From Pelagibacterium halotolerans B2 (GTDB lineage Bacteria > Pseudomonadota > Alphaproteobacteria > Rhizobiales > Devosiaceae), in the NCBI RefSeq assembly GCF_000230555.1, contig NC_016078.1, positions 806,001-870,000 on the forward strand: a stretch of DNA of 64,000 bases. The letters run 5' to 3'. A program made the translations under genes and the position numbers. The notes under the pieces were generated by a model. The model was given only the letters and a program-made list of their open reading frames with translations. It made no database searches and was not told the origin of the DNA. Shown piece by piece: positions 1-25,834 of the stretch (its first letter is position 1; the number at the start of each line of letters is the position of its first letter).

Positions 1-1
1 A

Positions 2-5817: not shown

Positions 5818-5839
5818 AGTCAAGTCCTTGTAAGCCGCC

Positions 5840-7471: not shown

Positions 7472-7482
7472 GTTCGACCTCC

Positions 7483-8394: not shown

Positions 8395-9416
8395 TTTGCA
8401 GATGTCCCGAAGCGAGGATCGATCGCGGTGTAGGTGAGGTCGATGATAAGATTGAGCAGCACAAACAGCATCGCCATGGCGAGCACGAAGCCCTGCACGG
8501 CGGCGTAATCTGAAACCACCAGCGCCTCTACGGCATAGGAGCCGATACCGGGCCAGGCGAAGACCTTTTCGACGAGCACATTGGCGCCGAGCACGAAGGA
8601 AAAGACCATGCCCAGCGTCGTCACGACCGGCAGCAGCGCATTTCGGAACGCATAACCGAACAGCACCTTCTGCCGCCCCAGTCCCGCCGCCCGCGCGGTG
8701 CGCACGAAATCGGCGGATAGCGCGGAGAGCATGGCGGCGCGGGTCATGCGGGCGATGGGCGCAAGCGTAAATAGGGCCAGCGTCGCGGCGGGCAGAATGA
8801 GCTGCTTGAGCGCCCCGAACCAGGTTTGCCAGTCGCCGATGATCGCGGCGTCGATGAGAAAGAACCCTGTAACGCGCGGCGGTTCGAGATAGATGAAGTC
8901 CAGCCGGCCAAGCGGTGACGGCGCAATTCCGAGCAGATAGTAAAACACGTAGATCAGCACGATGCCGGTAAAAAAGGTCGGAAGCGACACACCCGCTGTT
9001 ACGAGAATACGGCAGAGTTGATCGATCCAGCTTCCCGGCTTTGTGGCGGCGAGCACACCAAGCGGAATGGCAATGAGGCAGGAAACGATCAGTGCGGTCA
9101 GGGTCAGTTCGAGGCTGGCCGGCAGGCGTGAGGCGAGTTCGACCGAAACGGGACGTCCGGTGGAAACGGACTGTCCCAGATCCCCCTGGATCAACTGCCC
9201 CACATAGATGACGAATTGCTCGGGCAGCGACTTGTCGAGCCCGAGCGCCACGCGCACCTGTTCGATGGATTCAGGCGTTGCAGCAACGCCCGCGAACTGG
9301 ACTGCGGGGTCACCGGGCAAGGCGCGCGTGAGCAGAAAGCTGATCACCACCACTCCGATGACAACCGGGACCGCCTGGGCGACCCGGTTGAGAATGGCTG
9401 CGGCCCGTCCGGACAT
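8391..9416 (-). CDS. dppB: ABC transporter permease, DppB family
   Basis: The product is 341 aa with an N-terminal membrane anchor, the DppB-type FLLTRALPGDPA motif, GDLGQS near residue 97 and an EAA loop (DFVRTARAAGLGRQKV). It starts three bases after the stop of the binding-protein gene. It is the partner of DppC in the inner membrane of a family-5 (peptide/opine/nickel class) importer. Confidence 0.92.
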   Translation of the reverse strand: MSGRAAAILNRVAQAVPVVIGVVVISFLLTRALPGDPAVQFAGVAATPESIEQVRVALGLDKSLPEQFVIYVGQLIQGDLGQSVSTGRPVSVELASRLPASLELTLTALIVSCLIAIPLGVLAATKPGSWIDQLCRILVTAGVSLPTFFTGIVLIYVFYYLLGIAPSPLGRLDFIYLEPPRVTGFFLIDAAIIGDWQTWFGALKQLILPAATLALFTLAPIARMTRAAMLSALSADFVRTARAAGLGRQKVLFGYAFRNALLPVVTTLGMVFSFVLGANVLVEKVFAWPGIGSYAVEALVVSDYAAVQGFVLAMAMLFVLLNLIIDLTYTAIDPRFGTSAK

Positions 9417-9419
9417 GGA

Positions 9420-11030
9420 TCAGGCCTCCCCGGTGCCTTTGAGGGAACGGATGTCGAGCTGACGGTGGAACCAGAACTCGTAGCCTTCCGCACCATTCAC
9501 CGCGACGTTGAGGGCTGGTTGATAGAGCGGAATGCGCGGCAGATCCTCGAATGCGATCTCGAACATGCGGCTGATCTTGGGCAGGTATTGGGGATCGTCC
9601 TGCGCCATCGGCAAGGTCTCTTCGGTGAGGGCCTGCACCTCTGCATTGGCGTAGTTCGAGGAGTTGAACAGGTTTCCCTCCATATAGGCCCAGAAGAAAT
9701 AATAGTCGGGCGTGTCGAGCCAGCCGCCGAAATTCTCCAGATGCAGCGGCAGACGTTTTTCGACCAGAGAGGCCGTGCGCCAGTTTGCGCCGGGAATCTT
9801 CTCGATCTCGGTGGTGATGCCGATCTTGCCGAGCGCTTCCTGGATGAGCAGCGCGGTCGGCTCCATCCAGCTCGACAGGTCGGTACTGATCGACATCGGC
9901 ACCGAGAACCCTTCGGGATAGGCCGACGCCGCCATCAGTTCCTGCGCCTTTTCGATGTCAGTGAAATAGGGCGATTTGCGCGGCCACACAGTATCGGAAA
10001 TTTCCGCTTCGCCACCCCAGAGTGGTGCGCCGCGGCCATATGCGGCCGTCTGGAAAATCTCTTCATAGGGAATGGCATAGGCGATAGCCTTGCGCACGTT
10101 GGAATCCTGGAAAGGTTCGAACTCGTAGTTGATCCCGACCACATGGATGGTGTTGGCGATCGGGGTCGAATAGACGGTGAGCTTGTCGGCGAGTTCGGCA
10201 GCGTCCTTGTCGGGAATGTCGAAGGAAATATGCACATCGCCGCGCTCGACAAGGGCCCGGCGCGTTGCCGGACTTGGCACCTCGCGCTGGATCACGCGGG
10301 GAATTTCGGGCAGCGGGCCGCCGACCCAGCCGTCGAACCGCTCGAAAACGATCTGCTGGCCATTGTCCCAGCGCGCCACTTTGTAGGCGCCCGAACCGGC
10401 CGGATTGGTGTGCAGATATTCCATCGCCCAAGGGTCGTCCTCGGTGACGTTGGCCTTTGCGACTTCGGAATTAATGATGAAGGGCACCGGTACCGCCAGA
10501 TCCGGCAGGGAAAGCTTGGAGGCCTGGTCGAGCTTGACCACAAAGGTCTCCTCATCCACCGCCTCGAACTGGTCGGGCCGGGTCAAACCGCCGGCTTGCA
10601 TCTGGGTGGTCGGGAATCCGCCCACGGACACGGCGCGATCGAACGACCATTTCACGTCGGCCGCTGTCACCTTGCGCCCATCCCAGAACACCGCATTTGG
10701 CTTGAGCTTGAATGTGATGGTCAGCCCGTCTTCCGATGTTGTCCAACTCTCCGCCAGTTCCGGCTCGATCTTGGTGTAGTCGAAGGAAAGGCTTCCATCC
10801 TCGAGTTCCTTGGAGCCGAAGGTGATCAGCCGATCATAGCAGTTGATGGCGATCTGGTAGCTGGGGCGATTTGTGCCGGTACGATGCAGGTCGAGGCTGT
10901 TGATGGTCTGTCCTGTCGCAATGACCAGCGTATCGAGCGGCGCAGCTGTGACGGGAATGGCACGCGCCAACGGCAATCCGGCCATCAGCGCGGCGCCGGT
11001 TTGCAGGAAAGAGCGTCTCGAAAACGACAT
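9420..11030 (-). CDS. dppA: Extracellular solute-binding protein family 5 (DppA-like), Tat-type signal
   Basis: The product is 536 aa. The N-terminus MSFSRRSFLQTG carries a twin-arginine-like motif followed by a hydrophobic stretch and AxA cleavage region near residue 29, so export by Tat is likely. The body shows the SBP-5 pattern (ELAESWTTSEDGLTITFKLK near residue 90). It is the first gene of the leftward operon dppA-B-C-DF-atzF and is transcribed divergently from a LysR gene 136 bp away. It captures the substrate in the periplasm; linkage to an AtzF-like enzyme suggests an amide or ureido ligand rather than ordinary peptides. Confidence 0.92.
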   Translation of the reverse strand: MSFSRRSFLQTGAALMAGLPLARAIPVTAAPLDTLVIATGQTINSLDLHRTGTNRPSYQIAINCYDRLITFGSKELEDGSLSFDYTKIEPELAESWTTSEDGLTITFKLKPNAVFWDGRKVTAADVKWSFDRAVSVGGFPTTQMQAGGLTRPDQFEAVDEETFVVKLDQASKLSLPDLAVPVPFIINSEVAKANVTEDDPWAMEYLHTNPAGSGAYKVARWDNGQQIVFERFDGWVGGPLPEIPRVIQREVPSPATRRALVERGDVHISFDIPDKDAAELADKLTVYSTPIANTIHVVGINYEFEPFQDSNVRKAIAYAIPYEEIFQTAAYGRGAPLWGGEAEISDTVWPRKSPYFTDIEKAQELMAASAYPEGFSVPMSISTDLSSWMEPTALLIQEALGKIGITTEIEKIPGANWRTASLVEKRLPLHLENFGGWLDTPDYYFFWAYMEGNLFNSSNYANAEVQALTEETLPMAQDDPQYLPKISRMFEIAFEDLPRIPLYQPALNVAVNGAEGYEFWFHRQLDIRSLKGTGEA

Positions 11031-12425: not shown

Positions 12426-13622
12426 TCAGTGCGATCCGGTCAAGCAGCCGAGTCGGGGGCCGGCGATCTGTCGACCACCTCTGAAGACCATGCGCTCGGA
12501 CGGAGGATTGGCAAGGGCGGCCTGGGCGCAGGGCGCCTTTATCAACACGAAGTCAGCCGGGGCGCCGGCAACGAGAGGAGGTCGTGTTTCGCCTAGAACC
12601 GCAGCGGTGCGATCGGTGGCCAGTGAAAGGGCAAAGGCGAGACCAGAATCGGTGGCCCAGCATTGTTGGCGCGCCGCGATGGCGGCGCGCTCGAGCATGT
12701 CGCCATTGCCGAATGGGGACCAGGCATCGCAGATATTGTCCGACCCCAGCGCCACGCAGACACCGCGTTCGGCCAATTGGTCGAGCGGGGGCATCAGGCG
12801 CGGCGGCGCGCTCGAGATGATGGCAACACCGGCATTGGAAAGTCGGGCTGCGATGATTTCGAATTCAGGTTCGTTTAACTCCGATAGAGCAAATCCATGA
12901 CTGATTGCAATGTGCGAGGGGCGCCCATGGGCGAGCGCGCGCTCGCAGATTGCGGATATGGTTTTGACGCCAAGTGGGCCAGTTTCGTGCAGATGAATGT
13001 CGATGCCGACGTCAAAGTGTGACGCGAGAGAAAAAATGATATCGAGATGAGCGGCGCGGTCACCGTCGATCGCCATGGGGTCGAGCCCGCCGATGAGGTC
13101 AGCCCCCTGTGAAAGCGCAGCGGTTAAAAGGTCCTTGGTGCCCGGAGCACGAAGGATGCCCGACTGGGGAAAGGCAACGATTTCGATCGTGATGCGGTCA
13201 GAATAGCGTTGGCGCAATTCGAGGACCGCGTGGAGATTTTCAAGGCCCCAATCGGGGTCGATGTCGACGTGGGTTCGCATCAGTCCGGTGCCAAAGGCAA
13301 TCTCGCGCTCGATCAACGCCGCGCCGCGCACCGAAACAGGAACATCGAGGTTGGCACGGATTTGCTTTTCCATGCCAATACGGCCCAAAACGTCGTTTTG
13401 CCTGATGTGGGGCTGCCATGGTGCGCCCAGAAATGTCTTGTCGAGATGACAATGGCCCTCACTCAAGGGCGGCAGGCAAACCCAACCTGACGCATCGATG
13501 GGAAGACAATCAGATGGCGCAGCCTCGGCGCGCGCGGCAATTTTGTCCTCGACAATGGCCAGAGCGCCATGGCTTTCATCGGCAAACGTCATACCTTCAA
13601 GCCACATCGGTGCTTGTTTCAT
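12426..13622 (-). CDS. AtzC/cytosine deaminase-like amidohydrolase
   Basis: The product is 398 aa. The metal and catalytic ligands of the AtzC/CodA branch are all visible: H57 and H59 (GHCHLDK), H210 (DIHLHETG), H242 (ISHGF) and D295 in GSDNICD followed by a PFGNGDM loop like that of AtzC. Such enzymes remove an amino or alkylamino group from a heterocycle by hydrolysis. It is the last gene of a five-gene leftward operon and its start overlaps the flavin reductase stop by four bases. It is probably one hydrolytic step in a nitrogen-heterocycle catabolic pathway; the true substrate is unknown. Confidence 0.85.
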   Translation of the reverse strand: MKQAPMWLEGMTFADESHGALAIVEDKIAARAEAAPSDCLPIDASGWVCLPPLSEGHCHLDKTFLGAPWQPHIRQNDVLGRIGMEKQIRANLDVPVSVRGAALIEREIAFGTGLMRTHVDIDPDWGLENLHAVLELRQRYSDRITIEIVAFPQSGILRAPGTKDLLTAALSQGADLIGGLDPMAIDGDRAAHLDIIFSLASHFDVGIDIHLHETGPLGVKTISAICERALAHGRPSHIAISHGFALSELNEPEFEIIAARLSNAGVAIISSAPPRLMPPLDQLAERGVCVALGSDNICDAWSPFGNGDMLERAAIAARQQCWATDSGLAFALSLATDRTAAVLGETRPPLVAGAPADFVLIKAPCAQAALANPPSERMVFRGGRQIAGPRLGCLTGSH

Positions 13623-14137
13623 GGCAGAGGGCGCATGGCACGATCGAAATGGATCAGCGGTGCTGCCGGGCTCGGGGCCAATCGCACAGCCTGTGCCTGT
13701 GCGATCAGGATGATGTGGGTGGAATAGGGAATGTGTTGGCTGATGGTGCAGTCAAAGACCGCGAGCGCGCTATCAAGAGTTGGAACGCCGGTTTGGAGCG
13801 CAGACCAATTGCCGCGCCTGAACCGCTCGGCCTTGAGCGCCGCAGACGCAAATGGCTCGGCAATGGCCTGATCGGTGCTGGCAAGAATATTGACCGACAC
13901 GGCGCGGGTCGCAACGATGGCGTTGCGGGCCGAGGCCGTTTGGGAGACGCAGACCAACAGACTGGGTGGGTCCAGGGTGAGGGAGGTCACCGAGGTCGCG
14001 ACCAGGCCAACGGGATTTTCGAGACTGCCACTGGCAATGATCGATACCCCTGAGACCAGCTTGCTCATCCCGGCCCGGAAATCGGCTTCGAGACCAGTGT
14101 TGTCATCTGCGGTGGCAAATCGGGGCAAAGCACTCAT
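13619..14137 (-). CDS. Flavin reductase family protein (FMN-binding)
   Basis: The product is 172 aa with the flavin-reductase-like split barrel. The conserved VGLVATSVTSLTLDPPSLLV block (residues 43 to 62) binds flavin. The family supplies reduced FMN to a separate monooxygenase component. No oxygenase is adjacent in this operon, but a luciferase-like monooxygenase is encoded in the divergent unit (22101) and is the obvious partner. Start and stop both overlap neighbouring genes by four bases, so translation is coupled throughout. Confidence 0.88.
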   Translation of the reverse strand: MSALPRFATADDNTGLEADFRAGMSKLVSGVSIIASGSLENPVGLVATSVTSLTLDPPSLLVCVSQTASARNAIVATRAVSVNILASTDQAIAEPFASAALKAERFRRGNWSALQTGVPTLDSALAVFDCTISQHIPYSTHIILIAQAQAVRLAPSPAAPLIHFDRAMRPLP

Positions 14138-15393
14138 GGGTGGGCCTTTTTCCTGTGTGCGTGTCCGTCGGTGCCAGTGAGCCGTGCCCGTTCGCGAACA
14201 AAGGTCTGGCAGCCTGTCTTGAACCCCATGATGGGGGCTGCAAGACGCCGCACAGCGTCCGCGGGTGTGGGTGCGTCGACCAGCACCAAGTCGGCGGGCG
14301 CGCCAACGCGCAGATCCCGCTCGAGGCCGAGTTGGGCGAATCCGTTGGCGCTCACCATGTCAAAACAGCGCGCAAGTTCTTGATCGGAGGCGAGCTGGGC
14401 AAGGTTGGCAAAAAGATTGGCCATGCGGATCAGATTGGCATCGCCATAGGGCGTGAAGGGGTTGAGCACATTGTTGCTCGCAATGGTGGTGAGAACGCCT
14501 TGTGCATCGAGTGTCTGAAGCGGCGCGACACCGCGCGGCACAAGCCGGTCATGATCGCGACCATTGAGGAACAGATCGGTGGCCGGGAGCGCGGTGACCG
14601 AGATCCCGGCGCTCGCGAGCCGTCTGGCCAGTTCATCGACCATCTGCGGCGCCATGGCGGACATCTTGGTCGCATGACCGATAGAAACCCGCCCACCCCA
14701 TCCGCGTCGTTCGGTCTGCGCGATGATTTCGGGCAGAGCTGAGCCCTCGGGATCAAGATCAAAGTCCGCGTGGAAATCCACAGCGACATTATAATCCTGG
14801 GCCAGATCAAAGATCGCCGTGACGTGAGCAGTGGGGTCTGGATCCATATAGGGGCACCCGCCGATCTGGTCGGCGCCGTTTTCAAGCGCGGTCTTTAAAA
14901 GCGCTGCTGTTTCTAGCTCTTGGGTCAGACCTTCCTGGGCGAACGCGCACAGCGTGAGATTAATGGCATGGTCGTAGGCACGCCTAATGTCGAGCAGCGC
15001 CTGAAATGAGCGCAGTCCGGCCCGCGGATCGAGTTCAACGAAACTGCGCATCGCGTTTGTGCCCGAAACGATAGCCATTTCGATCACTTGAGCCGCCCGG
15101 GCATAAACATCCTCGCGCGTGAAGCCTGATTTGGCCGAGGCTGTTAGACTCACCGCTTCGGCGAGTGTGCCATTACAGATGGAGCATCGATCAAGGATCA
15201 TTGCCTTGTCGAGATGAATGTGGGTTTCCGCATAGCCCGGAATGGCCATCGCCCCCTGCGCTTCGATACGAACCGCCGCTGGGCCGAGTTCGGGGCCAAT
15301 TGCTGCAATGCGCCCCTCGATCACTCCGATTTCGCATGGAACGGAATGGCCGGGTCGCGTCACTCCGACGATGAGCAGATCGAATGCGCTCAT
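14134..15393 (-). CDS. AtzC-like amidohydrolase with Asn in place of the catalytic Asp
   Basis: The product is 419 aa. H58 and H60 (ETHIHLDK), H208 (DFHAD) and H240 (IGHATK) match the metal-binding His residues of AtzC/cytosine deaminase. At the position of the conserved Asp (ASDN in AtzC) this protein has ASNN, that is N307, followed by PFTPYGDANL. Loss of the Asp would change or abolish standard metal-assisted hydrolysis, although whole subgroups may share it. It resembles its neighbour at 12426 in overall layout but is clearly diverged. It sits mid-operon, coupled by four-base overlaps on both sides. Confidence 0.85.
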   Translation of the reverse strand: MSAFDLLIVGVTRPGHSVPCEIGVIEGRIAAIGPELGPAAVRIEAQGAMAIPGYAETHIHLDKAMILDRCSICNGTLAEAVSLTASAKSGFTREDVYARAAQVIEMAIVSGTNAMRSFVELDPRAGLRSFQALLDIRRAYDHAINLTLCAFAQEGLTQELETAALLKTALENGADQIGGCPYMDPDPTAHVTAIFDLAQDYNVAVDFHADFDLDPEGSALPEIIAQTERRGWGGRVSIGHATKMSAMAPQMVDELARRLASAGISVTALPATDLFLNGRDHDRLVPRGVAPLQTLDAQGVLTTIASNNVLNPFTPYGDANLIRMANLFANLAQLASDQELARCFDMVSANGFAQLGLERDLRVGAPADLVLVDAPTPADAVRRLAAPIMGFKTGCQTFVRERARLTGTDGHAHRKKAHP

Positions 15394-16943
15394 TGATCGG
15401 CCATGGCGTTGAACCGATAGGGGCGATAGCCCGCGTCAAGACCGGAATGGGCAAGATGACGCTCGATGAAGGGTAGAAGCAAGTTGACCATCTCGCTGGC
15501 TTCGGTCTCGCTTTCCGTGGCCGGCGCACTAAGCTTATCCTTGATTTCTGCCATCACCGCATCGCGGTCGACCCGTATAACGCGTCCTCCATCGACGACC
15601 AGATCGCCACCGACAAAGACCTTGTCGATGGCGGATTTGGTTGCACGGTGCAGAACGGTCTCCGAAATGGGCGTTGCACTGGAAACAAACGGACGCTCAA
15701 GCGCATCACGATCGAGGAGAACGATGTCGGCCATATATCCAGGTTCTAGCCGACCGGCCAATCCGCCGAATCCGGCCGATTTTGCGCCGTGCTCAGTAGC
15801 CATCTGAAGGATAGCCGCAGCATCGGGCCGCTCGCTGAATAGCCCGGTTTCACGATGAAGCGCCCAGGCGAGCTTGATCTCGGCCAACATGTCGCGATCA
15901 TCGCAGAGATTGGATTGATCGATGCCTAGCGCGATTGGAATGGACTTCGCCCGCATCGCGTTGACCGGAGCGATGCCCGAGCCAAGGCGTAGGCCCGAAC
16001 TGGCATTGTGGCATGCCGAGCAGCCGCATTCGGCAAGAATATCGATGTCCTCAGAATCGAGCCAGTTTCCGTGTCCGATAGTCACGTTGGGGCCCAGGAC
16101 GCCCAATCGGGCGAGATGGGCAACTGCCGAACAGCCAAAGGATTCACGCGCGTAACGAGCCTGTCGCTCGGTCTCGACCAGATGCATGTGAATATTGGCA
16201 CCGGAGGTCCGGGCCGTTTCTGCGATCAACTGAAGTGCATCATCGGAACACCAGTGCAGATTTGCTGGAGCAAGATGCATTCGCACCCTGTCGGGCTCCT
16301 CGCGCTCCCATAGGGAGCGGATTCGCTCAAAAAACGCCATGTATTCGGAGGTGGGGACGCAGGCGGGGGCAAGCCGCGGGGTGATCCAGTCGCGCAACGC
16401 CTTTGGAAATTGGGCGATAAGATCGGCATCGGGACCGTACCCAAGGATCGAGCGATCGCGCATCATGAACGAATAGCCTGCGCGCATGCCAATCTCGCCA
16501 TAGGCAGAAAGGACCGTGTTGCTGGTGGCGGCCCACTCCTCGGGCGTTCCCACCAGTCCTGAATGAATGTGATGGACGCTGGTGGTGCCGCTTTCGAGCA
16601 TTTCGATGGCCGAATATAGCGTATCAAGGCGCGGCCCGATCTGGCGCATGGCGCGAAAGCGGGGCAGCCACAACTCGAGCGGTGCAAAAGGCACCCCACT
16701 CATCAGCGGAGTGATACCGAAATGGTGGTGGGCGTTAGTGAAACCCGGCATGGCAACCAGGCGGCGCGAGCCGTAGCGTGGGAGATGGTCGTTGCCAAAT
16801 CCGACGGCAGCAATGGGACCGATCTGGGCAATGCGGCCTCCGTGGACGCGAATGGCCGCGTCGTGGCGCAGAGCCATGGTTCCATCAGGCGCGACGCCAA
16901 TCAAAACAGTGCCGGCCTCGATGATGCAATCGGTCTCGCTCAT
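15390..16943 (-). CDS. AtzB/TrzN/guanine deaminase-type amidohydrolase
   Basis: The product is 517 aa. It has H72 and H74 in NAHHHFG, HMHLVET near residue 253, IGHGNWL near 288 and GIDQSN near 335, the ligand set of the s-triazine hydrolase/8-oxoguanine deaminase group. The C-terminal about 70 residues are a family-typical extension containing acidic runs. These enzymes dehalogenate, deaminate or dealkylate triazines, pyrimidines and purines. With two AtzC-like enzymes beside it and an AtzF-like enzyme elsewhere in the block, the set resembles the logic of atrazine degradation without being that pathway. Coupled to the neighbours by four-base overlaps. Confidence 0.85.
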   Translation of the reverse strand: MSETDCIIEAGTVLIGVAPDGTMALRHDAAIRVHGGRIAQIGPIAAVGFGNDHLPRYGSRRLVAMPGFTNAHHHFGITPLMSGVPFAPLELWLPRFRAMRQIGPRLDTLYSAIEMLESGTTSVHHIHSGLVGTPEEWAATSNTVLSAYGEIGMRAGYSFMMRDRSILGYGPDADLIAQFPKALRDWITPRLAPACVPTSEYMAFFERIRSLWEREEPDRVRMHLAPANLHWCSDDALQLIAETARTSGANIHMHLVETERQARYARESFGCSAVAHLARLGVLGPNVTIGHGNWLDSEDIDILAECGCSACHNASSGLRLGSGIAPVNAMRAKSIPIALGIDQSNLCDDRDMLAEIKLAWALHRETGLFSERPDAAAILQMATEHGAKSAGFGGLAGRLEPGYMADIVLLDRDALERPFVSSATPISETVLHRATKSAIDKVFVGGDLVVDGGRVIRVDRDAVMAEIKDKLSAPATESETEASEMVNLLLPFIERHLAHSGLDAGYRPYRFNAMADQ

Positions 16944-17989
16944 GTGTAGTCAGGCACCAGGCCGACGCGCCGGGCGGCGGCGAGTTGGTAGAGCGGGTCG
17001 CCATAAGCACCGAATTCCTGGGTGGCAGTGAAAACCAGGCTCAGGTCGTGCTCATCATAAGATTGCGCGGCTGCAGCCTTGATGGTCTCCCAGGGGGGGA
17101 CAGGCAGGTCGCGCCAGCGCTCCACGGTCTCCCGATCCGGCAGGGTGGGGAACCCCATCTCGCCCATCAGCGCAGCAACGCACTGCCAGAAATGGCGCAG
17201 GAGCGTTTCGGGATCACGGCTATAGGGCATGACCACTCGCAGCCAGTGCAGGCCAGTGACAGCGTGCAGCGCGGAAAAATCCATGGTGGCAGCAAAAAGC
17301 ATAATGGCCGTGTTGGCCATGCGCGGGAGGGTTTCAGCATCGACCGCCAGCCAATCGATCACTGGGGCAAACTCGGGCAGGCGGCCGGACTCGGCCATGT
17401 TTTGCCAGAGCAATTCGTGCAGCGGCAATTCGTGCATCGCGTCGATATCGGCAATGCGGCCAAGGATTTCGGCAGGATCAAATGTGATCGGGGCGACACC
17501 CAGGCTGGGCGGCATGTCGAGATAGGTGGCGGCCCAGTACGCCAGCGATGCGGCGATCTCGGTCTCGTCCTCGCGTATCAATCCATAGGCCATACGCATG
17601 AGCGCGTGCAGCGCGCTGGCGCCAATCCCAGGAGCAAGAATGTCAAGGTAGGCGTGCAGCGCGCCGGCTATACCCAGCCGGTCGACCTCGCGGGTAAAAA
17701 AGACCCGCAGGTCCGGCTCGCGCTCGCGCCGCCCGATCGCCGATAGCCAGCTTGCAGCATCAAGCCGGGCTATGGTTGGGCCGAAGGGCACAAGAGCCTT
17801 GTAGTCGCGGTAGTGGGTGAAAAATTCTGCCAATCGCTCGGGGGAGCCGCCCAGCCGGTCAAGCGCGACCAGCACCATCGGGGCGTGGTTGGCATAGGTT
17901 TTGGCGAACTCCGACCCATAGGCGGACATAGTCGCCATGACTTCGGCCAGACCGGATGTGGGATGGGGGGCAAACTGAAGGTGAGACAT
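16940..17989 (-). CDS. Questin oxidase-like (DUF4243) family protein
   Basis: The product is 349 aa when started at the ATG at 17989, where the family pattern begins (YANHAPMVLVALDRLGG near residue 27). The frame stays open far upstream, but that extension is compositionally unlike the protein and runs through the divergent promoter and its LysR boxes, so I reject it. The family is named for fungal enzymes that open an anthraquinone ring without an obvious cofactor site; bacterial members are mostly uncharacterised. It is the first gene of the leftward operon, which suggests an oxidative or ring-opening step before the hydrolases. No strong ribosome site is visible. Confidence 0.75.
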   Translation of the reverse strand: MSHLQFAPHPTSGLAEVMATMSAYGSEFAKTYANHAPMVLVALDRLGGSPERLAEFFTHYRDYKALVPFGPTIARLDAASWLSAIGRREREPDLRVFFTREVDRLGIAGALHAYLDILAPGIGASALHALMRMAYGLIREDETEIAASLAYWAATYLDMPPSLGVAPITFDPAEILGRIADIDAMHELPLHELLWQNMAESGRLPEFAPVIDWLAVDAETLPRMANTAIMLFAATMDFSALHAVTGLHWLRVVMPYSRDPETLLRHFWQCVAALMGEMGFPTLPDRETVERWRDLPVPPWETIKAAAAQSYDEHDLSLVFTATQEFGAYGDPLYQLAAARRVGLVPDYT

Positions 17990-18120
17990 GACTAAAAACC
18001 GATTGGGTGATTTGAGCCAACGATAGGCCGGCTGGAATGGCATGCAAGTTGGGAGCAATCGGTTGAATCCGGCGTGTTGGGGTGGCCAAAAGTGAGGCGC
18101 AGCAAGGGTTTGGGATGCAG

Positions 18121-18139
18121 CGTTGCCGGGCGGGCAACG
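18121..18139. promoter_or_regulatory. LysR-type operator, copy 1
   Basis: CGTTGC and GCAACG are separated by seven bases, and the inner T and A have T-N11-A spacing. It is 132 bp upstream of the questin-oxidase-like start. Confidence 0.6.
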
Positions 18140-18250
18140 CCGTGAGGCAAAAAAGGCGGCCTGAGCGTCAGAGCGGGCGGGGGCATCCATGCACTTGAAT
18201 TTCAAACAGAAATTTAGCGCCGCATTTGACTGAGAAGTCCGGTTCCCGGC

Positions 18251-18269
18251 CGTTGCCGAAATCGCAACA
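18251..18269. promoter_or_regulatory. LysR-type operator, copy 2
   Basis: CGTTGC and GCAACA are separated by seven bases, with one mismatch from perfect symmetry. It lies 189 bp upstream of the ABC ATPase gene. Confidence 0.55.
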
Positions 18270-18457
18270 GATTGCCCCCAATTGCTCTCTTGCGCCGATT
18301 TTGCATTGCTGCTTACCGTTTGATCATCGCAATAGCGCTGCTCAATTTCTATGCGATTGGCGCGAGGTGAAGGTCTGTCGGCCGCATCAAGAACTGGCAA
18401 ATTCCATCGGGGGAGGGTGGTTTCGCCGCAATCCGCCGCGTGCGGAAAGGAGAAAGC

Positions 18458-19273
18458 ATGGTCCAAGCGCAGGGATTTGGATTGGTGGCCGACGATGTCG
18501 GTATGGTCTATCGCCGCGGTGCCCAGGAAACGCTCGCACTCGCCGATTGCAATCTTAATGTTGGGCGCGGCCAGTGGGCCTCGCTGATCGGCGCTTCCGG
18601 GTGCGGAAAATCCACGCTGTTGCGCATATTTGCCGACATCGTGCACCCAACCTGTGGCACGGCGACCCTGCATGGGCTCACTCCTGCCGAAGCGCGTGCC
18701 AACCGCACCTTTGCCCTGGTCTCCCAGCAGTCGACCATGCTGCCTTGGCGCAAGATCCTGGAAAATGTCGAACTCGGTCTCGAAGTGGCAGGAGTGGGCA
18801 AGTCCGAACGCCGGCGCGCCGCCATGGAGGCGATCGAATTGGTGGGGCTGATGGGATTTGAACATGTCTATCCCAATGAACTCTCGGGCGGCATGCGCCA
18901 GCGCGCCGCGATCGCTCGGGCACTAACGCTTCGACCCCAGTTTCTGCTCATGGACGAACCGTTCGGGGCGCTCGATGAAATCACCCGTGAAAAGCTCAAT
19001 TTCGAATTGCTGCGTATTCTGCGCGAAACCTCGGCAACGCTTTTGCTGGTCACCCACTCGATCAGCGAAGCGATCATCCTTTCCGACCAGGTGGCGGTCA
19101 TGACCCCGCGCCCGGGGCGGATTTCCAAGATCGTTGACATCGGGTTTGGCCATGAGCGCACGAGCGCAATGCGCGATGATCCACGCTTTGCACAATACGA
19201 GATCGCCCTGCGGCACGCGCTGCATGGCGCCCCGCCGGAAAAGTCGGCGACTGTCCACAAGATGTATGCCTGA
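18458..19273 (+). CDS. ABC transporter ATPase, nitrate/sulfonate/taurine type
   Basis: The product is 271 aa. Walker A is GASGCGKS near residue 45, the signature LSGGMRQR near 145, and Walker B LLMDEPFGALD near 165, the set shared by SsuB/TauB/NrtD and ThiZ-like ATPases. The ATG at 18458 follows AAAGGAG; an earlier GTG is less likely. It opens the rightward operon ATPase, binding protein, two permeases, luciferase-like monooxygenase. The high-affinity class of importer suits scarce organic nitrogen or sulfur compounds. Confidence 0.92.
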   Translation: MVQAQGFGLVADDVGMVYRRGAQETLALADCNLNVGRGQWASLIGASGCGKSTLLRIFADIVHPTCGTATLHGLTPAEARANRTFALVSQQSTMLPWRKILENVELGLEVAGVGKSERRRAAMEAIELVGLMGFEHVYPNELSGGMRQRAAIARALTLRPQFLLMDEPFGALDEITREKLNFELLRILRETSATLLLVTHSISEAIILSDQVAVMTPRPGRISKIVDIGFGHERTSAMRDDPRFAQYEIALRHALHGAPPEKSATVHKMYA

Positions 19274-19299
19274 ACCCCTCGTTCAACTGGAGCCCTGAC

Positions 19300-20325
19300 A
19301 TGACTGCATGCCGTTTCCCACATCCCCTGCGCGCCATATCCGCCACCAGCGCTGCAATTTTGGCCCTCGCTGCCGCCAGCGCGATGGCCCAAGACCTTAA
19401 GCCCCTCACGGTGGTTTTGAGCTATGTCCCCAATGTCGAAAACTTTGGAGCTCTTTATGCCAAGGAGATGGGTTTTTTCGAACAAGCCGGTCTGGATGTG
19501 ACTCTCATTCCGGGGGGACAGGGGATCGACCAGATCCAGATGGTGTCGGCCGGTATGGCTCAACTGGGCATGACCGGTGCTGATTCCGTGGTCGCCGCAG
19601 TCGACAAGGGCGCCGATCTCAAGGTGATCGCCGCCCAGTTCCAGACCTCCCCGGTCGCCATGACCTGCCGCGAAGACTCCGGGATTACCGAGCCTTCAAT
19701 GATTGCGGGCAAGCGGCTTGGCGTCAAACAGGCTGCCCAGGTTTACGCGGAATCGTTTCTGGCCAAAAACGATGTCGATATCGCTGACGTTGAAACCACA
19801 ACCATCGGCAATTCGGACGTCTCCACCATCATAGCCGGCGCGGTCGATTGCATGATCACCACATTTGCGGTCAACGAACCGCGCCTGATCGAAAATGCGG
19901 GGGTGCCCGTAACCGTTTTGCCCCTTGGTGATTGGGGGATGAATTCGCAATCGGGCTCCTGGATTGTGACCGGCGAATTCCTCTCTGACCCGGAGAACGC
20001 GCAAACTCTAGTTGCCTATCTTGAAGCCGAAGCGCGGGCATGGGACGTCTATTTCGACGATCCTGAAGCAGCCGCGCAGTTCATTGTCGAGGGCAATTTC
20101 AATGACGGGCTCGATCTCGACCAGCAGACCTATCAGGCGGTACATCAGGCTGACTACATGCTCTCGGACCTAACAGCCGAAAACGGCATCTTGTGGCTCG
20201 ATCCCGACGTCTGGGACGAAACGGTCCAGAACGCGTTTGAGGCCGGTGCGGCTTCCAGCGTGATCGATCCGGAGAGTTTTACAACCACGGAAATCCTTGA
20301 AGCGGCCCAATTGCCGATGCGCTGA
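19300..20325 (+). CDS. ABC transporter substrate-binding protein, NMT1/SsuA-like
   Basis: The product is 341 aa with a signal peptide whose hydrophobic core ends in ASAMAQ near residue 30. The mature part starts LTVVLSYVPNVENFGALYAKEMGFF, as in THI5/NMT1 and SsuA-type binding proteins for pyrimidine precursors, sulfonates and similar small aromatics. A ribosome site (GGAG, ACTGGAGCCC) precedes the ATG. It is 26 bp behind the ATPase gene and delivers ligand to the two permeases that follow. The NMT1-like fold is consistent with a heterocyclic substrate but does not prove it. Confidence 0.9.
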   Translation: MTACRFPHPLRAISATSAAILALAAASAMAQDLKPLTVVLSYVPNVENFGALYAKEMGFFEQAGLDVTLIPGGQGIDQIQMVSAGMAQLGMTGADSVVAAVDKGADLKVIAAQFQTSPVAMTCREDSGITEPSMIAGKRLGVKQAAQVYAESFLAKNDVDIADVETTTIGNSDVSTIIAGAVDCMITTFAVNEPRLIENAGVPVTVLPLGDWGMNSQSGSWIVTGEFLSDPENAQTLVAYLEAEARAWDVYFDDPEAAAQFIVEGNFNDGLDLDQQTYQAVHQADYMLSDLTAENGILWLDPDVWDETVQNAFEAGAASSVIDPESFTTTEILEAAQLPMR

Positions 20326-20397
20326 TCGCGTTTGCCCTCCGGTGCTGGAGCCAGGTGGCTCCGGCACTCGTTGCCAGACCGGACAAGGATGATGTTG

Positions 20398-21234
20398 ATG
20401 AGCGGAGCTATCTCCAATGCGCCCGGTGTTGATACACGAGCACCCTCAGGCTTGAATTTGAGCCGGTTCAGGCATGTGGCCACCTTCTGGCCGCCTGTTC
20501 TGTTTTTGGCATTACTGATCATGCTTTGGGCCGTGCTTTCGCAAATCGGGGTCATTCCTGGGTTCTTGCTGCCGGCACCGGGAGCGATCGCACTCGAATT
20601 TGTCACCAATTCCGAAGTGCTCATGCGGCATGCCTCAGCGACCGCATTCGAGGCGTTGGCGGGGTTTACGATTGGCAATCTTGCTGCGATTGTTGGAGCC
20701 GCGTTGCTGTCTTCAATGCCCGTTCTGCGTGACGCATTTTATCCCTATGCACTCATTTCGCGGGCAGTGCCCATTGTGGTGTTTACACCCGTGGTCGTGG
20801 TTTTGCTCGGACGCGGCCTGCCACCCATTATCGCCATTGTCTCGTTCGCGGTCTATTTCCCGACCTTTCTCAACATGATGCGTGGGCTCAAATCTCCCGA
20901 GCCCGACTATTACGAGATGCTGCACTCGTATTCGGCCAGCCCGCTCCAGCGGCTCAAGATGATCGAATTTCCCGCGGCAATGCCCTATCTGTTTGCGGCG
21001 CTGAAAATCAGCGCGTCTTCTGCCTTTATCGCAGCGCTTGTGACCGAGTGGATCGGCGCCAATACCGGGCTGGGCTACCTGGTCGTCGTCTCCTCGCAAT
21101 ATTTCCGGCTTCCCACCATGTGGGCTGCCATCTTCACCTCGGCCGCTCTGACGCTGACGCTTCTGGCCGTCGTTCACGTCGTCGAGCATCTTCTGAAACG
21201 CTACACCGCCGCATCACCCGATGTTGGCGCCTGA
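20398..21234 (+). CDS. ABC transporter permease, SsuC/TauC type (1)
   Basis: The product is 278 aa with about six membrane helices and an EAA-type cytoplasmic loop (YEMLHSYSASPLQRLKMIEFP near residue 180). Of three closely spaced in-frame ATGs the one at 20398 has the best spacing to AAGGA. It pairs with the next permease; a heterodimeric membrane channel is usual for importers encoded with two such genes. Confidence 0.88.
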   Translation: MSGAISNAPGVDTRAPSGLNLSRFRHVATFWPPVLFLALLIMLWAVLSQIGVIPGFLLPAPGAIALEFVTNSEVLMRHASATAFEALAGFTIGNLAAIVGAALLSSMPVLRDAFYPYALISRAVPIVVFTPVVVVLLGRGLPPIIAIVSFAVYFPTFLNMMRGLKSPEPDYYEMLHSYSASPLQRLKMIEFPAAMPYLFAALKISASSAFIAALVTEWIGANTGLGYLVVVSSQYFRLPTMWAAIFTSAALTLTLLAVVHVVEHLLKRYTAASPDVGA

Positions 21235-21244
21235 GGAGACCGCA

Positions 21245-22072
21245 ATGACAGCCCACGCGGATTTGCGTGTCCAAACTATCGGTTTAGTGCCCCAGCTATG
21301 GGACGCAATTGGTGCCCGTCGCAAGGTCGTACTGCCGATACTGGTATTTTGCGCCATCGTCGCCTTCTGGGAATATGCGACCGCAATCCGCCTTGTGCCC
21401 CCGATCATTCTCGCCGGGCCAAGTGCGATCGTCCGGGCGCTGCAGACTTCTGGTCTCGAAATCCTCGCCAACATGGCCGTAACACTTTTCCAGGCCCTCG
21501 CCGGGTTTGTTATCGGCAATGTGCTGGGCCTTTTGGTGGCGATAATCTTCGTTCATTCGAGCATGGTCCGGCGCACCGTCTATCCCCTGGCAATCGCCGC
21601 CGAGGCCGTGCCCATCGTGGCGGTCGTGCCCGTCCTGATCTTGTGGTTGGGCAATGGGGTCGAGCCAAAAATCTTCATCACCAGTTTTCTGACCTTCTTT
21701 CCCATGCTCATCAACGCCTATCGCGGGCTGCGCAGTGCCGATGCCGAAGTCCAGGAACTGCTCTATACGCTCTCGGCCTCACGTTTCCAGACACTGATCA
21801 TGGTCCGCTTACCCGCCTCGGTGCCGTTCTTGTTCAACGCTCTCAAGCTTTCTGCATGCACCTGCATCATGGCCTCGATCGTGGCGGAATGGCTCGCCTC
21901 AAATCGCGGGCTTGGCTATTTGATCGTGCTCTACGGCCAGCGCTATCAGATCCCCGAAGTGTGGGCGACAGCGCTGGTCGCAACCGCAATGAGCCTTGTG
22001 GTTTATGGCACCATGGTTCTGGCAGAGCGCTGGGCAATGCCCTGGAAGCAGGCTTCGGACTTTTCCTCATAG
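21245..22072 (+). CDS. ABC transporter permease, SsuC/TauC type (2)
   Basis: The product is 275 aa, similar in layout to the preceding permease: six helices, an EAA loop (VQELLYTLSASRFQTLIMV) and the C-terminal RYQIPEVWA block. The ATG at 21245 follows GAGGAGA and lies 10 bp after the previous stop. The two permeases are homologous but well diverged, which fits a heterodimer. Confidence 0.88.
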   Translation: MTAHADLRVQTIGLVPQLWDAIGARRKVVLPILVFCAIVAFWEYATAIRLVPPIILAGPSAIVRALQTSGLEILANMAVTLFQALAGFVIGNVLGLLVAIIFVHSSMVRRTVYPLAIAAEAVPIVAVVPVLILWLGNGVEPKIFITSFLTFFPMLINAYRGLRSADAEVQELLYTLSASRFQTLIMVRLPASVPFLFNALKLSACTCIMASIVAEWLASNRGLGYLIVLYGQRYQIPEVWATALVATAMSLVVYGTMVLAERWAMPWKQASDFSS

Positions 22073-22100
22073 ATTTCTCGAGCTTACAAAGGAATTTGCC

Positions 22101-23117
22101 ATGCACCCCAAGTTTGGCCTGATGGACCAAGGATGGGCGCCACCTGAAATGAGCGATGCGGAATCAATTGCCCAAACGGTTGGCACGATAAACCTGGCCG
22201 ATGAACTGGGCTTTGATTCAGCCTGGGTCGGTGAGCATCACCATCGGCGGCCAGAAGCCGCGTTCTGGGGGCGGGTGTCTGCGTCCGAGCTGGTGCTGGC
22301 CCATGCTGCAGCCACCACCAGCTCGATTGCGCTCGGTACGGGCGTGCGTGTGCTCTCCACCACCACAGCCCTGCGCACCGCCGAGGAAATGAGTATGCTC
22401 AGCGTTCTTTCGGGTGGGCGGGTTGATTTCGGGATCGGGTTGGGCTCGGGCCAGCCGGGGATGCAAAGCCGTGATGAAAAGGCCGCGGCCTTCCGCGTCC
22501 TGGTCTCGGACCTGCTGGCGTTCTTGCGCAATGACCCTGCGACCGGATTGCCTGAACTCAGCCCCGTTTCACCAGTCGATATCACCACCCGATTGTGGGC
22601 CGCGGCGCGCGATGAGCCAACGATCGCCCATCTGGCCGATCTGGGGATCAATCTGGTTGTGGGGCAAGCCGAGACAGGGCCGGTTCAGGCCAATTACGTC
22701 GAACAATACCGAAAGGCAGGAGGCAAGGGGCGTACACGCGGAGTGCGGCTGGTTCACGTTGCACCGACCCATGCCGAAGCGCTGGCCCGAACGGAGGCGG
22801 CGAGCGATCTTTACTTTTCCCAGATGACCAAGGGAGGCTACCACAAGGAAGCGATCGACAAGGGTCTTTTCCCTGCCGAGCCGGAAAGCCGCGAGGCGAT
22901 GCTTGAGCAGATCAACTTCATCGTGGGCACACCCGAAACAGTGATCAAAGAACTCAACACCTATATCGCCCAAACAGGTGTCGATCAGCTCGACGCCATG
23001 GTGCGCATACCGCGCCTTGCGATTGGTGACGTGCACGAGTGCATGCGGCTTTTGAAGCGCGAAGTGATCCCCAATCTGGCGTTTGGTGTTGCCCCCATGT
23101 GGTCAAAGACCGCTTGA
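22101..23117 (+). CDS. Luciferase-like (LLM class) flavin-dependent monooxygenase
   Basis: The product is 338 aa. The N-terminal strand is followed by DELGFDSAWVGEHHH near residue 37, and LGTGVRVLS plus SGGRVDFGIGLGSG near residues 78 to 118 are typical of the bacterial-luciferase TIM barrel that binds reduced FMN. The ATG at 22101 has AAAGGA upstream. Such enzymes need a separate flavin reductase; one lies in the divergent operon at 13619. It is the last gene of the importer operon, so uptake and oxygenation would be induced together. It is not RutA by residue pattern, and the substrate is unknown. Confidence 0.88.
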   Translation: MHPKFGLMDQGWAPPEMSDAESIAQTVGTINLADELGFDSAWVGEHHHRRPEAAFWGRVSASELVLAHAAATTSSIALGTGVRVLSTTTALRTAEEMSMLSVLSGGRVDFGIGLGSGQPGMQSRDEKAAAFRVLVSDLLAFLRNDPATGLPELSPVSPVDITTRLWAAARDEPTIAHLADLGINLVVGQAETGPVQANYVEQYRKAGGKGRTRGVRLVHVAPTHAEALARTEAASDLYFSQMTKGGYHKEAIDKGLFPAEPESREAMLEQINFIVGTPETVIKELNTYIAQTGVDQLDAMVRIPRLAIGDVHECMRLLKREVIPNLAFGVAPMWSKTA

Positions 23118-23118
23118 G

Positions 23119-23137
23119 CGTTGCGCAAGACGCAATG
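23119..23137. promoter_or_regulatory. LysR-type operator, copy 3
   Basis: CGTTGC and GCAATG are separated by seven bases. It lies directly after the monooxygenase stop and 75 bp upstream of the LysR start, where autoregulation is expected. Confidence 0.5.
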
Positions 23138-23211
23138 GCGGTGTGCGCAATTATCGATTTTACGGGCTCTGAATATGCCAGAGAGTGGAATTCCCAGAAA
23201 GGGAGGCCGAC

Positions 23212-24192
23212 ATGGCATCGAGCTTTGTGCATGTTCATCTGGTGGCGCTGCGCTATTTCGGCGAAACCGTCCGCACCGGCTCCATGCGCCAGGCGGCCGA
23301 GCACCTCAATGTCGCAGCCTCGGCCGTCAATCGCCAGATCCTCAAGCTTGAGGACCAGCTCCAGTGCAAGCTGTTTGACCGTCGCGCCGAAGGGGTTCGC
23401 CTCACGGCGGCTGGGGAAGTGCTCTACAACTACATTTTGCGGCTCGAGCGCGATCTTGACCGCGCCATTTCCCAAATTGACGATTTGCGCGGCTTGCGGC
23501 GCGGCCACGTCAAGATCGCCTGTGAGGACGGGCTGGGGCGCGACTACCTTCCACCCCTATTGAGCCAGTTTCACAAGGATCATCCCGGCATCACCTATAG
23601 CGTCGAGATCGCCTCGGCACTCGATATTTTGACACAGGTGGCCGACGGCGCGATCGATATCGGTATTGCCATGGCGCCCCCGCGCAACCCCGATGTCAGT
23701 ATCATCGCCCAGGCTGCAATGCCCATGGGCGTGGTGGTTGCGCCAGACAGCCCGCTGGCAGGGCGGCAATCGGTACGTCTGCGCGATCTGGCGGGAGAAA
23801 CCGTCATTCTGGCCAAAGACGGTACCGGCGGGGGGGCCAGCTATTACGAACAGCTGGGCTTTGCACAGCCCCATACCCGGTTCATGCAGACCAATGCTCC
23901 CGACTTCATCACCAATCTGGTCAAGGCCGGGCTCGGTGTGGGCATCCGTTCTCCCATCGGGATCATGGGTGATATCGAAGATCGAAAAATCTGCTTTGTC
24001 CCTATTGGTGACACCACGCTCGAAGCGCCTACCCTTTCGCTTTATGCCAAGCCCCACCGGGCTCTGCCGATGGCCGCTGCCACCTTGCTCGAGCGATTGA
24101 AGGATGCGTTGCCCGAATTTCGCGACCGGGTGCATGCGGCCGGCCGCTGTCCGCTGGTGATCGACCCTCAAAGAGAAGTCGCACCAGCCTAG
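23212..24192 (+). CDS. LysR-family regulator, probable controller of the catabolic regulon
   Basis: The product is 326 aa with a winged helix-turn-helix at residues 8 to 66 (GSMRQAAEHLNVAASAVNRQ) and a LysR substrate-binding domain. The ATG at 23212 follows GGGAGG. The inverted repeat CGTTGC-N5/7-GCAACG occurs before this gene, twice in the divergent operon region and twice before the next flavoprotein gene, which points to this protein as the shared regulator. It resembles the LysR protein at 11167 in domain layout but controls a different set of sites. Confidence 0.92.
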   Translation: MASSFVHVHLVALRYFGETVRTGSMRQAAEHLNVAASAVNRQILKLEDQLQCKLFDRRAEGVRLTAAGEVLYNYILRLERDLDRAISQIDDLRGLRRGHVKIACEDGLGRDYLPPLLSQFHKDHPGITYSVEIASALDILTQVADGAIDIGIAMAPPRNPDVSIIAQAAMPMGVVVAPDSPLAGRQSVRLRDLAGETVILAKDGTGGGASYYEQLGFAQPHTRFMQTNAPDFITNLVKAGLGVGIRSPIGIMGDIEDRKICFVPIGDTTLEAPTLSLYAKPHRALPMAAATLLERLKDALPEFRDRVHAAGRCPLVIDPQREVAPA

Positions 24193-24193
24193 T

Positions 24194-24212
24194 CGTTGCC
24201 GGAACGGCAACG
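24194..24212. promoter_or_regulatory. LysR-type operator, copy 4
   Basis: CGTTGC and GCAACG are separated by seven bases and form a perfect inverted repeat (the symmetry extends to CGTTGCCG/CGGCAACG). It lies 147 bp upstream of the flavoprotein start. Confidence 0.6.
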
Positions 24213-24226
24213 CCCTTTGTCAAATT

Positions 24227-24243
24227 CGTTGCTAGGCGCAACG
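24227..24243. promoter_or_regulatory. LysR-type operator, copy 5 (short spacer)
   Basis: CGTTGC and GCAACG are separated by five bases. Its centre is 32 bp, three helical turns, from copy 4, so both could be bound on the same DNA face. Confidence 0.5.
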
Positions 24244-24358
24244 CTGCGGTGTGGCGCAGTGTAAGCCAACCGCGGGAATACGGTACCTATCGTCCTGGCG
24301 TCCCGCTCGCTTCCGCAATCCCCGGCCGTATTTTCGGCCCAGCGAAGAGGGCACCGCA

Positions 24359-25834
24359 ATGACAACAATCTCAAAGACCTCCGCCCAGCGTCTTACCGCA
24401 CTGGCCGATCGCGCGCGCGCGGAACTGAACATGCTCAGTTTTGCCACCAAGCCCTGGGTGATGCCTAAGATCGAAGATGGAGCAAAAATGCTCGATGTGG
24501 TGATCATCGGGGCCGGGCAGTCAGGTTTGGTGGTTGGTCACGCGCTCAAACGCCATGGTGTGACCAATTTTGTGGTGCTCGACCGCAATCGCCAAGGCTA
24601 TGAGGGAGTGTGGGAAACCTACGCCCGCAATCATGAAATCCGCTCGCCCAAAGAGATCATGGGCGCCGATCTCGGCCTGCCCTCAATGACCATTGAGAGC
24701 TTTTACCGCGCCAAGCATGGCGATGCCGCCTGGGATGAAATCAAGCGAATTCCGCGCACCGACTGGATGGATTTCTTGCGCTGGTATCGCGCCATCGCCG
24801 ATCTGCCGATCCGCAACGAGGTGACCGTCGCCGACATCGACTATGATGCAAATGGGGTGACGATCACTACCAAGGATGGTGAGACACTGCGGACGCGGCT
24901 GGTGATCCTTGCGACGGGCATGGACGGCGGCGGGGGTTGGCAGACCCCCGAAATCATCACCCGCAACCTGCCGCATGGTCGCTACAACCATGCGTGCGAA
25001 GTCTATGATGTGAGCCGGTTCAAAGACAAATCAATCGGCGTTCTGGGCGCGGGAGCGGCTGCGTTCGATGCAGCGGTGGCCGCGCTCGATGCGGGCGCAA
25101 GACACGTGGACCTGTTCATGCGCCGACCCCAATTACCCATGATCGATGTGGCTCGCGAAATCGAGACGGCCGGCCAGCTCAATCACGGTCATGAATTGTC
25201 CGATGAGACAAAATGGGGGCTCTCACGCTTTATGAGCGGGCTGAGCCAGTCCCCGGCCGAGCACCACTTTTATAAGGCCTGCAGCTTTGACAATTTCGCC
25301 ATGCACCTGGGGTCGCCCTGGTGGTCGGTAGGGATTGAGGGTGACATGGTGGCGATCAAGACCCCCAAATCCCAATTTCGCTTTGATCATGTGGTGTCCG
25401 CGACCGGGGTTGCAGTGGATATGACGCGTCGGCCCGAATTGGGTAAAATCGCCAAAGGGGCAGCGCTCTGGCGCGACAGGTTTACCCCTCCTGCCGATGA
25501 TCCAGCGCCTGGGCGGCTCAATTTTCCCTATCTCAATCATTGCTATCAGTTCACCGAGCGCGAGCCGGGCACCGCACGCGGAATCGAGCGCATCTTTGCC
25601 TTCAATGCGCTCGCCTCGCTTTCGATGGGTGGAATGTCTGCCGTCTCGATCTCAAGTCATCGTTTTGGGGTGCCCCGTGTTGTGGCCGGGGTGACTGGTT
25701 TCCTGTTCCGCGAACAGGAGCAGGCGATCATTCCAATGTTGGCCGCCTACAATACTCCCGGCATCGTTTTGACCGACCGCACCCGCGAAAAGCTGGGACT
25801 GGCGGTTGATTCAGCACTCGCCAAAGCAGGGTGA
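24359..25834 (+). CDS. FAD/NAD(P)-dependent monooxygenase-like oxidoreductase
   Basis: The product is 491 aa. VVIIGAGQSG at residues 47 to 56 binds FAD, ATGMDG near 185 ends the first dinucleotide fold, and VLGAGAAAFD near 228 is the NAD(P) motif. The ATG at 24359 follows a GAAGAGGG site; an upstream extension is not supported. It is a full-length paralog of the truncated flavoprotein at the left edge. Two LysR-type operators precede it, so it belongs to the same regulon as the two operons to its left. It probably oxygenates a substrate or intermediate of the pathway. Confidence 0.88.
   Translation: MTTISKTSAQRLTALADRARAELNMLSFATKPWVMPKIEDGAKMLDVVIIGAGQSGLVVGHALKRHGVTNFVVLDRNRQGYEGVWETYARNHEIRSPKEIMGADLGLPSMTIESFYRAKHGDAAWDEIKRIPRTDWMDFLRWYRAIADLPIRNEVTVADIDYDANGVTITTKDGETLRTRLVILATGMDGGGGWQTPEIITRNLPHGRYNHACEVYDVSRFKDKSIGVLGAGAAAFDAAVAALDAGARHVDLFMRRPQLPMIDVAREIETAGQLNHGHELSDETKWGLSRFMSGLSQSPAEHHFYKACSFDNFAMHLGSPWWSVGIEGDMVAIKTPKSQFRFDHVVSATGVAVDMTRRPELGKIAKGAALWRDRFTPPADDPAPGRLNFPYLNHCYQFTEREPGTARGIERIFAFNALASLSMGGMSAVSISSHRFGVPRVVAGVTGFLFREQEQAIIPMLAAYNTPGIVLTDRTREKLGLAVDSALAKAG

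Follow-up and report, generated by a model that had tools for sequence, protein, structure and literature searches.

We report a gene cluster of Pelagibacterium halotolerans B2 that, judging from the families of its genes, probably takes up a cyclic nitrogen compound, opens its ring oxidatively with oxygen and removes the nitrogen. The cluster spans positions 12426 to 25834 of a 64,000-nucleotide stretch (assembly GCF_000230555.1, contig NC_016078.1, positions 806,001 to 870,000), here called the window. We assign a probability of about 0.55 to its being an inducible catabolic unit for an amino- or oxo-substituted N-heteroaromatic of the pyrimidine, pteridine or purine class. The recurring pair in this cluster and its relatives is a flavin adenine dinucleotide (FAD)-dependent monooxygenase and a questin-oxidase-like protein of family PF14027, accompanied by amidohydrolases.

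The leftward unit (12426 to 17989) comprises five genes in the order PF14027, AtzB-type amidohydrolase, CodA/AtzC-type amidohydrolase (AtzC1), flavin reductase and a second AtzC-type amidohydrolase (AtzC2), with an ATGA overlap at all four junctions; a preliminary description of this DNA had noted the four-base overlaps. The divergent unit (18440 to 25834) encodes the ATPase of an ATP-binding cassette (ABC) importer, an NMT1 binding protein, two permeases, a luciferase-like monooxygenase, a LysR-type regulator and the FAD monooxygenase. All families named in that description (two AtzC/CodA-type and one AtzB-type amidohydrolase, flavin reductase, PF14027, NMT1, two permeases and luciferase-like) were found where it had placed them; the importer ATPase and the FAD monooxygenase had been overlooked.

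Relatives were compared at 27 loci, comprising the window, seven hand-picked and closely related Rhizobium loci (L001, L005, L006, L007, L017, L080 and L081; six plasmid records and one genome scaffold) and 19 genome stretches (L050 to L068). The 19 stretches come from 19 of the 27 other genomes of the order with a PF14027 match; G176 was set apart as distant, and G244, G293, G278, G150, G187, G051 and G038 fell outside the comparison. L060 is 5 kb long, and L051 and L061 stop at contig ends. Counting the window throughout, PF14027 was accompanied by an AtzB- or AtzC2-type amidohydrolase in 24/27 loci (exceptions, L051, L061 and L081), with an AtzC2 homologue in 18 and AtzC1 in 7. An ABC importer was present in 26 loci (20 sugar type, 3 NMT1 type and 3 another, third type), with none matched in L061. 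The FAD monooxygenase occurred in 20. FAD monooxygenase and PF14027 lie in a single open frame in three genomes (L064, L066 and L067), and both Pfam domains were confirmed in L067, the one fusion scanned. The preliminary description had suggested seeking its gene set in other genomes; the full eleven-gene set was in none of the other loci compared, but parts of it recur together, as they would not by chance. PF14027, once regarded as odd company for the other genes, is the hub of the recurring set.

The luciferase-like gene was found in 2/27 loci (the window and L050) and the flavin reductase in the window itself, making them the least conserved members. These counts speak against the scheme first proposed, a mainly hydrolytic, triazine-like deamination with the luciferase-like monooxygenase and flavin reductase as key oxygenase. 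The named families and operon overlaps agree with it, but the AtzB-type protein also falls far under the curated cut-offs for 8-oxoguanine deaminase (170 versus 532 bits) and N-ethylammeline chlorohydrolase (169 versus 609 bits), and we regard this scheme as improbable.

The closest whole-cluster relative was L050 (genome G058; 61 to 80% identity), in which ATPase, binding protein, permeases, luciferase-like, LysR and FAD monooxygenase genes diverge from PF14027 and AtzB; its 20-kb stretch held no AtzC1, reductase or AtzC2. L054 holds binding protein, PF14027, AtzB, ATPase, permeases, LysR, FAD monooxygenase and AtzC1 in an order differing from that of the window. If the hydrolase operon and the divergent importer/oxygenase unit were merely adjacent, each serving a different substrate, this would account for the divergent promoters and for L009 (AtzC1 and AtzB) and L013 (AtzC1), which carry a GGT-family gene and in which neither PF14027 nor the FAD monooxygenase was matched over the 19 to 26 kb compared. 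Both halves nonetheless stay together in L050 and in the rearranged L054, making such independence unlikely.

The PF14027 protein is rare in the order and the phylum. Matches were found in 28/397 genomes of the order (own genome included, with three weak or distant matches, G038, G051 and G176), with none in five listed same-genus genomes, and across the phylum the Pfam model matched in 5/398 genomes (four over the cut-off, own genome included). Among plasmid records it occurred in 88, of which 85 were Rhizobium. None of the partner genes was found around distant members L075 to L078 or in weak-match region L079 (stretches of 8 to 20 kb).

The protein scored 74.6 bits against the PF14027 profile (gathering score, 27) and shares the fold of BTG13 and PaD. 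The profile alignment placed Met38 opposite His58 of BTG13 (the position mutated in structure 7y3x), with Met in 145/145 bacterial sequences aligned. BTG13 presumably uses a carboxylated lysine within a DxHxxK motif; the counterpart of this lysine is Ser317 (Ser in 142/142 clade sequences), and the lysine is kept in PaD and in three distant bacterial members aligned. The metal site of the bacterial branch seems, by alignment, to differ from the fungal one. Degradation or detoxification of a quinone or polyketide, with PF14027 acting on an anthraquinone-like compound as in fungi and the amidohydrolases incidental, would suit the fold shared with BTG13, PaD and AflY. It would also suit the match of the luciferase-like protein to the MsnO8 family (97 bits, under the cut-off of 166.95), MsnO8 reportedly having a polyketide role. 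The lack of conservation of His58 and of the DxHxxK lysine, and the amidohydrolases beside PF14027 in nearly all loci compared, make it quite unlikely.

An open reading frame of 641 amino acids (16940 to 18865) was rejected as an over-call of the PF14027 gene, since some 140 codons at its start run antisense to the ATPase gene and another 150 or so after them are intergenic; the PF14027 match is confined to residues 325 to 607. The gene most likely starts at 17989 and encodes 349 amino acids.

Substrate clues came from the relatives. A single stretch of L080 (Rhizobium leguminosarum pRLN4) holds AtzC2, DeoR, SDR, PF14027, FAD monooxygenase, a sugar-type importer, two isochorismatase-family genes, atzF, BtpA/SgcQ, FGGY kinase, AtzC1 and a GGT-family gene. 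The first isochorismatase-family protein is BiuH-like (276 bits, under the 370 cut-off), its nearest solved chain being 6azo (245 bits); 6xix, which we take to be TrtA, scored 200 bits. Chain 6azo is BiuH of R. leguminosarum (PMC7948467). The second (L080, 22979 to 23584) lacks the catalytic cysteine in the six copies whose motif was read by eye; this gene and its homologues in L058, L064, L067, L068 and L081 stand next to the BiuH-like gene. The Cys-less protein could act as a decarboxylase, like TrtB, or serve as a subunit.

Among the matches listed, a BiuH-like gene lies 6 to 10 kb from PF14027 in at least 11 of 25 genomes (G179, G087, G095, G282, G187, G293, G225, G130, G099, G347 and G278; in G187, PF14027 is split across two contigs). 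On plasmids the distance is 6 to 8 kb in 14/14 records of at least 69.9% identity, all Rhizobium; L098, the one record inspected under that line, had no PF14027 match. The plasmid genes beside PF14027 form their own group (70 to 100% to the query; next records, at most 58%). AtzF-like genes lie within 10 kb of PF14027 in 10/28 genomes, the window copy being at 11 kb. Two of the ten exceed the TIGR02713 cut-off, and the eight matches under it (e.g., L058 and L068) stop near position 430 of the 563-position model. All ten genomes also have a full-length AtzF elsewhere, so the nearby copies are dedicated paralogues whose substrate may be another ureide. An 8-oxoguanine deaminase above its cut-off is adjacent to PF14027 in L007, with homologues, assigned by similarity, in L017 and L065. 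Together with the core, these BiuH-like, AtzF-like and 8-oxoguanine-deaminase-type genes make oxygenolytic opening of an amino/oxo N-heterocycle the best reading. The uptake, oxygenation and hydrolysis of an N-heterocycle in the preliminary description fits such clusters, without its emphasis on the luciferase-like enzyme.

FGGY kinase, DeoR and SDR genes recur beside PF14027 in sugar-type loci (L007, L017, L052 to L059, L065, L067, L068 and L080), which suggests a sugar-linked (nucleoside-like) substrate in those relatives; BtpA/SgcQ also recurs in several sugar-type-importer loci. A luciferase-like monooxygenase with a reductase is reminiscent of riboflavin lyase. A unit for flavin (riboflavin or lumichrome) catabolism would combine that resemblance with the sugar-type importer, FGGY kinase and SDR genes of many relatives and with the dioxopyrimidine ring of isoalloxazine, but the presence of 8-oxoguanine deaminase in one relative points to an aminopyrimidinone ring, and on the genes compared we hold this reading to be very unlikely. 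In the window, the binding protein has as its nearest solved structure the FAMP (aminopyrimidine)-binding protein 3ix1, with weak similarity (E value, 2e-9).

The residues that bind metal and take part in catalysis across its family are present in the AtzB-type protein, as an HxH, H, E, H, D pattern with H72/H74, H254, E257, H291 and D342 invariant in 13 sequences; we take these and the beta-8 positions to be metal ligands by analogy with the family. Its homologues (63 to 67% identity) adjoin PF14027 in Rhizobium and L050. The NCBIfam lists used hold no AtzB- or AtzC-named model; against PDB chains, AtzC1 scored 98 to 106 bits with AtzC and 139 to 166 bits with CodA. The AtzC1 type has Asn for the beta-8 Asp in 9/9 sequences and the AtzC2 type keeps the Asp in 6/6, window included in each case. 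The Asn-bearing group either uses another mechanism or lacks hydrolase activity, and stepwise deamination by three amidohydrolases, as originally described, is too simple.

The analysis establishes gene content, fold and family, and the recurrence of FAD monooxygenase, PF14027 and amidohydrolase together along with the fusions; from these we infer substrate class, step order, metal, products and regulation as follows. The NMT1 importer would bring the substrate into the cell, where the AtzB-type amidohydrolase would take off an amino group outside the ring. Next the FAD monooxygenase, perhaps aided by the luciferase-like enzyme and flavin reductase, would render the ring electron-rich (hydroquinone-like), and PF14027, as a putative non-heme-metal oxygenase, would cleave a C-C bond within it. 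The imide or ureide so formed would be hydrolysed by the two AtzC-type proteins, and allophanate hydrolase would liberate the last nitrogen. Ring opening of an N-heteroaromatic is the simplest reading because deaminases would act before PF14027 and ureide hydrolases after it. The allophanate hydrolase of the window is full-length, lies behind an oligopeptide-type importer on the strand of the leftward unit, and is the sole match in the host genome above the TIGR02713 cut-off; it is a possible end step of the pathway.

Several points weigh against an N-heteroaromatic catabolic unit. With Met for His58 and Ser for the DxHxxK lysine, the chemistry of PF14027 may differ or be lost; one amidohydrolase, AtzC1, is without the usual beta-8 Asp; and the scheme gives the luciferase-like enzyme no firm role. 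The FAD monooxygenase is not near PF14027 in 7/27 loci; a search for it in 13 genomes yielded nothing in 2 and only marginal matches in 3. The loci were partly chosen and are not independent, L017 having been recruited through a search with the FAD monooxygenase and so being biased for that gene. The three importer types argue for several substrates across the relatives. The host genome has no close BiuH (best, 34% identity and 80 bits to the L080 BiuH-like protein), and the AtzF-like copies near PF14027, mostly under their cut-off, may act on another ureide.

A bolder and tentative version of the proposal, to which we give low odds, is that the FAD monooxygenase and PF14027 split a fused pyrimidine (purine or pterin) at its central C-C bond, bypassing allantoin. 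By atom counting, a C4-C5 cut of urate (or deaminated 8-oxoguanine) would leave a ring of a triuret unit and an oxalyl unit; hydrolysis would then yield triuret plus oxalate or oxamate, and a pteridine would yield biuret. In relatives, BiuH-like and AtzF-like enzymes would finish the pathway, and oxamate may be a substrate of the GGT-family protein, GGT-family proteins being linked to oxamate hydrolysis through HpxW; the window would represent a variant that imports by the NMT1 system and has just one allophanate hydrolase. If true, this would be an enzymatic oxygenolytic purine/pterin pathway, and triuret and biuret would gain a biological source. More generally, the proposed unit would give the bacterial branch of PF14027 a catabolic role and would join three orphans: the questin oxidase genes common on Rhizobium plasmids, the adjacent isochorismatase and allophanate genes, and the unexplained natural origin of triuret.

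Features of the cluster and of the nearby allophanate hydrolase operon (window positions)
Feature	Position	Strand	Remarks
PF14027 (questin-oxidase-like/DUF4243) protein, 349 amino acids	16940..17989	-	Putative non-heme-metal ring-opening oxygenase
AtzB/8-oxoguanine-deaminase-type amidohydrolase	15390..16943	-	Amidohydro_1, 138 bits
CodA/AtzC-type amidohydrolase 1 (AtzC1)	14134..15393	-	Asn at usual beta-8 Asp position
Flavin reductase (RutF/HpaC type)	13619..14137	-	Pfam, 106.6 bits
AtzC-type amidohydrolase 2 (AtzC2, PRK05985 subfamily)	12426..13622	-	431 bits (cut-off, 408); beta-8 Asp retained
ABC importer ATPase, probable start 18458	18440..19273	+	Sequence inspection; 80% identical gene at equivalent place in L050
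NMT1/THI5-type periplasmic binding protein	19300..20325	+	Pfam, 127.9 bits
ABC permease 1	20332..21234	+	Family match
ABC permease 2	21221..22072	+	Family match
Luciferase-like (group C) monooxygenase	22101..23117	+	Pfam, 104 bits
LysR-type regulator	23185..24192	+	Counterparts at equivalent place in L050 (65%) and L054 (49%)
FAD-dependent class-B-like monooxygenase, probable start 24359 (frame opens 24251)	24359..25834	+	
Allophanate hydrolase, separate operon 11 kb off	4012..5823	-	794 bits (cut-off, 487); TIGR02713, 752 (cut-off, 511)
Oligopeptide-type ABC importer next to allophanate hydrolase gene	5840..11030	-	Cluster membership uncertain
Importer ATPases	5840..7639	-	
Importer permeases	7483..8394, 8391..9416	-	
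Importer binding protein	9420..11030	-	

Beyond these genes, a second FAD monooxygenase homologue (38 to 43% to the L080 copy) occupies window positions 1 to 1306 (+), starting in L083 near 18862, beside genes for an M19 dipeptidase (1231 to 2295), M81/MlrC (2286 to 3710), LysR and a TRAP transporter; together these may make up another, related catabolic unit that faces the allophanate hydrolase. An RND transporter frame (26017 to 27813) matches only AcrB profile positions 451 to 1019, which may mean a truncated or broken gene.

The searchable literature, which leaves out most subscription papers, yielded no paper on such a cluster; the author of the preliminary description likewise knew of no named pathway with its gene set. 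To our knowledge, the characterised members of the PF14027 family are all biosynthetic. MinC, a DUF4243-domain protein, is required for making the N-heterocycle antibiotic minimycin (PMC8724604). Compared with BTG13, PaD, AflY and the DUF4243 domain of MinC, the window protein differs at His58 and the DxHxxK lysine; it and its relatives also differ in being paired or fused with an FAD monooxygenase and in having amidohydrolase neighbours. The triuret/biuret operon trtA-biuH-atzF of Herbaspirillum and R. leguminosarum 3841 begins at triuret and, in its description, includes no oxygenase (PMC7948467). The relatives resemble it in their consecutive BiuH-like, Cys-less isochorismatase-like and AtzF-like genes, but the plasmid BiuH-like genes beside PF14027 form a separate group. 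The window has atzF only, with no TrtA/BiuH gene beside it; BiuH-like plus AtzF occurs in relatives such as L080 and L092. The s-triazine Atz pathway shares AtzB-, AtzC- and AtzF-type hydrolases with the cluster, which differs in having oxygenases and PF14027, and its AtzB-type protein is only distantly related to the solved hydroxydechloroatrazine enzyme chain (92 bits). The Rut uracil pathway likewise combines a flavin monooxygenase and RutF-like reductase with ring opening and hydrolases, but the reductase here scored 110 bits against a RutF cut-off of 254.75, PF14027 is central in the cluster, and no isochorismatase-family gene, in contrast to the Rut pathway, was found among the window genes scanned. 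In the nicotinate nic pathway, a flavin hydroxylase produces a hydroquinone-like N-ring, a non-heme dioxygenase opens it, and amidases follow; the scheme proposed for the cluster resembles this pathway in the logic of its steps.

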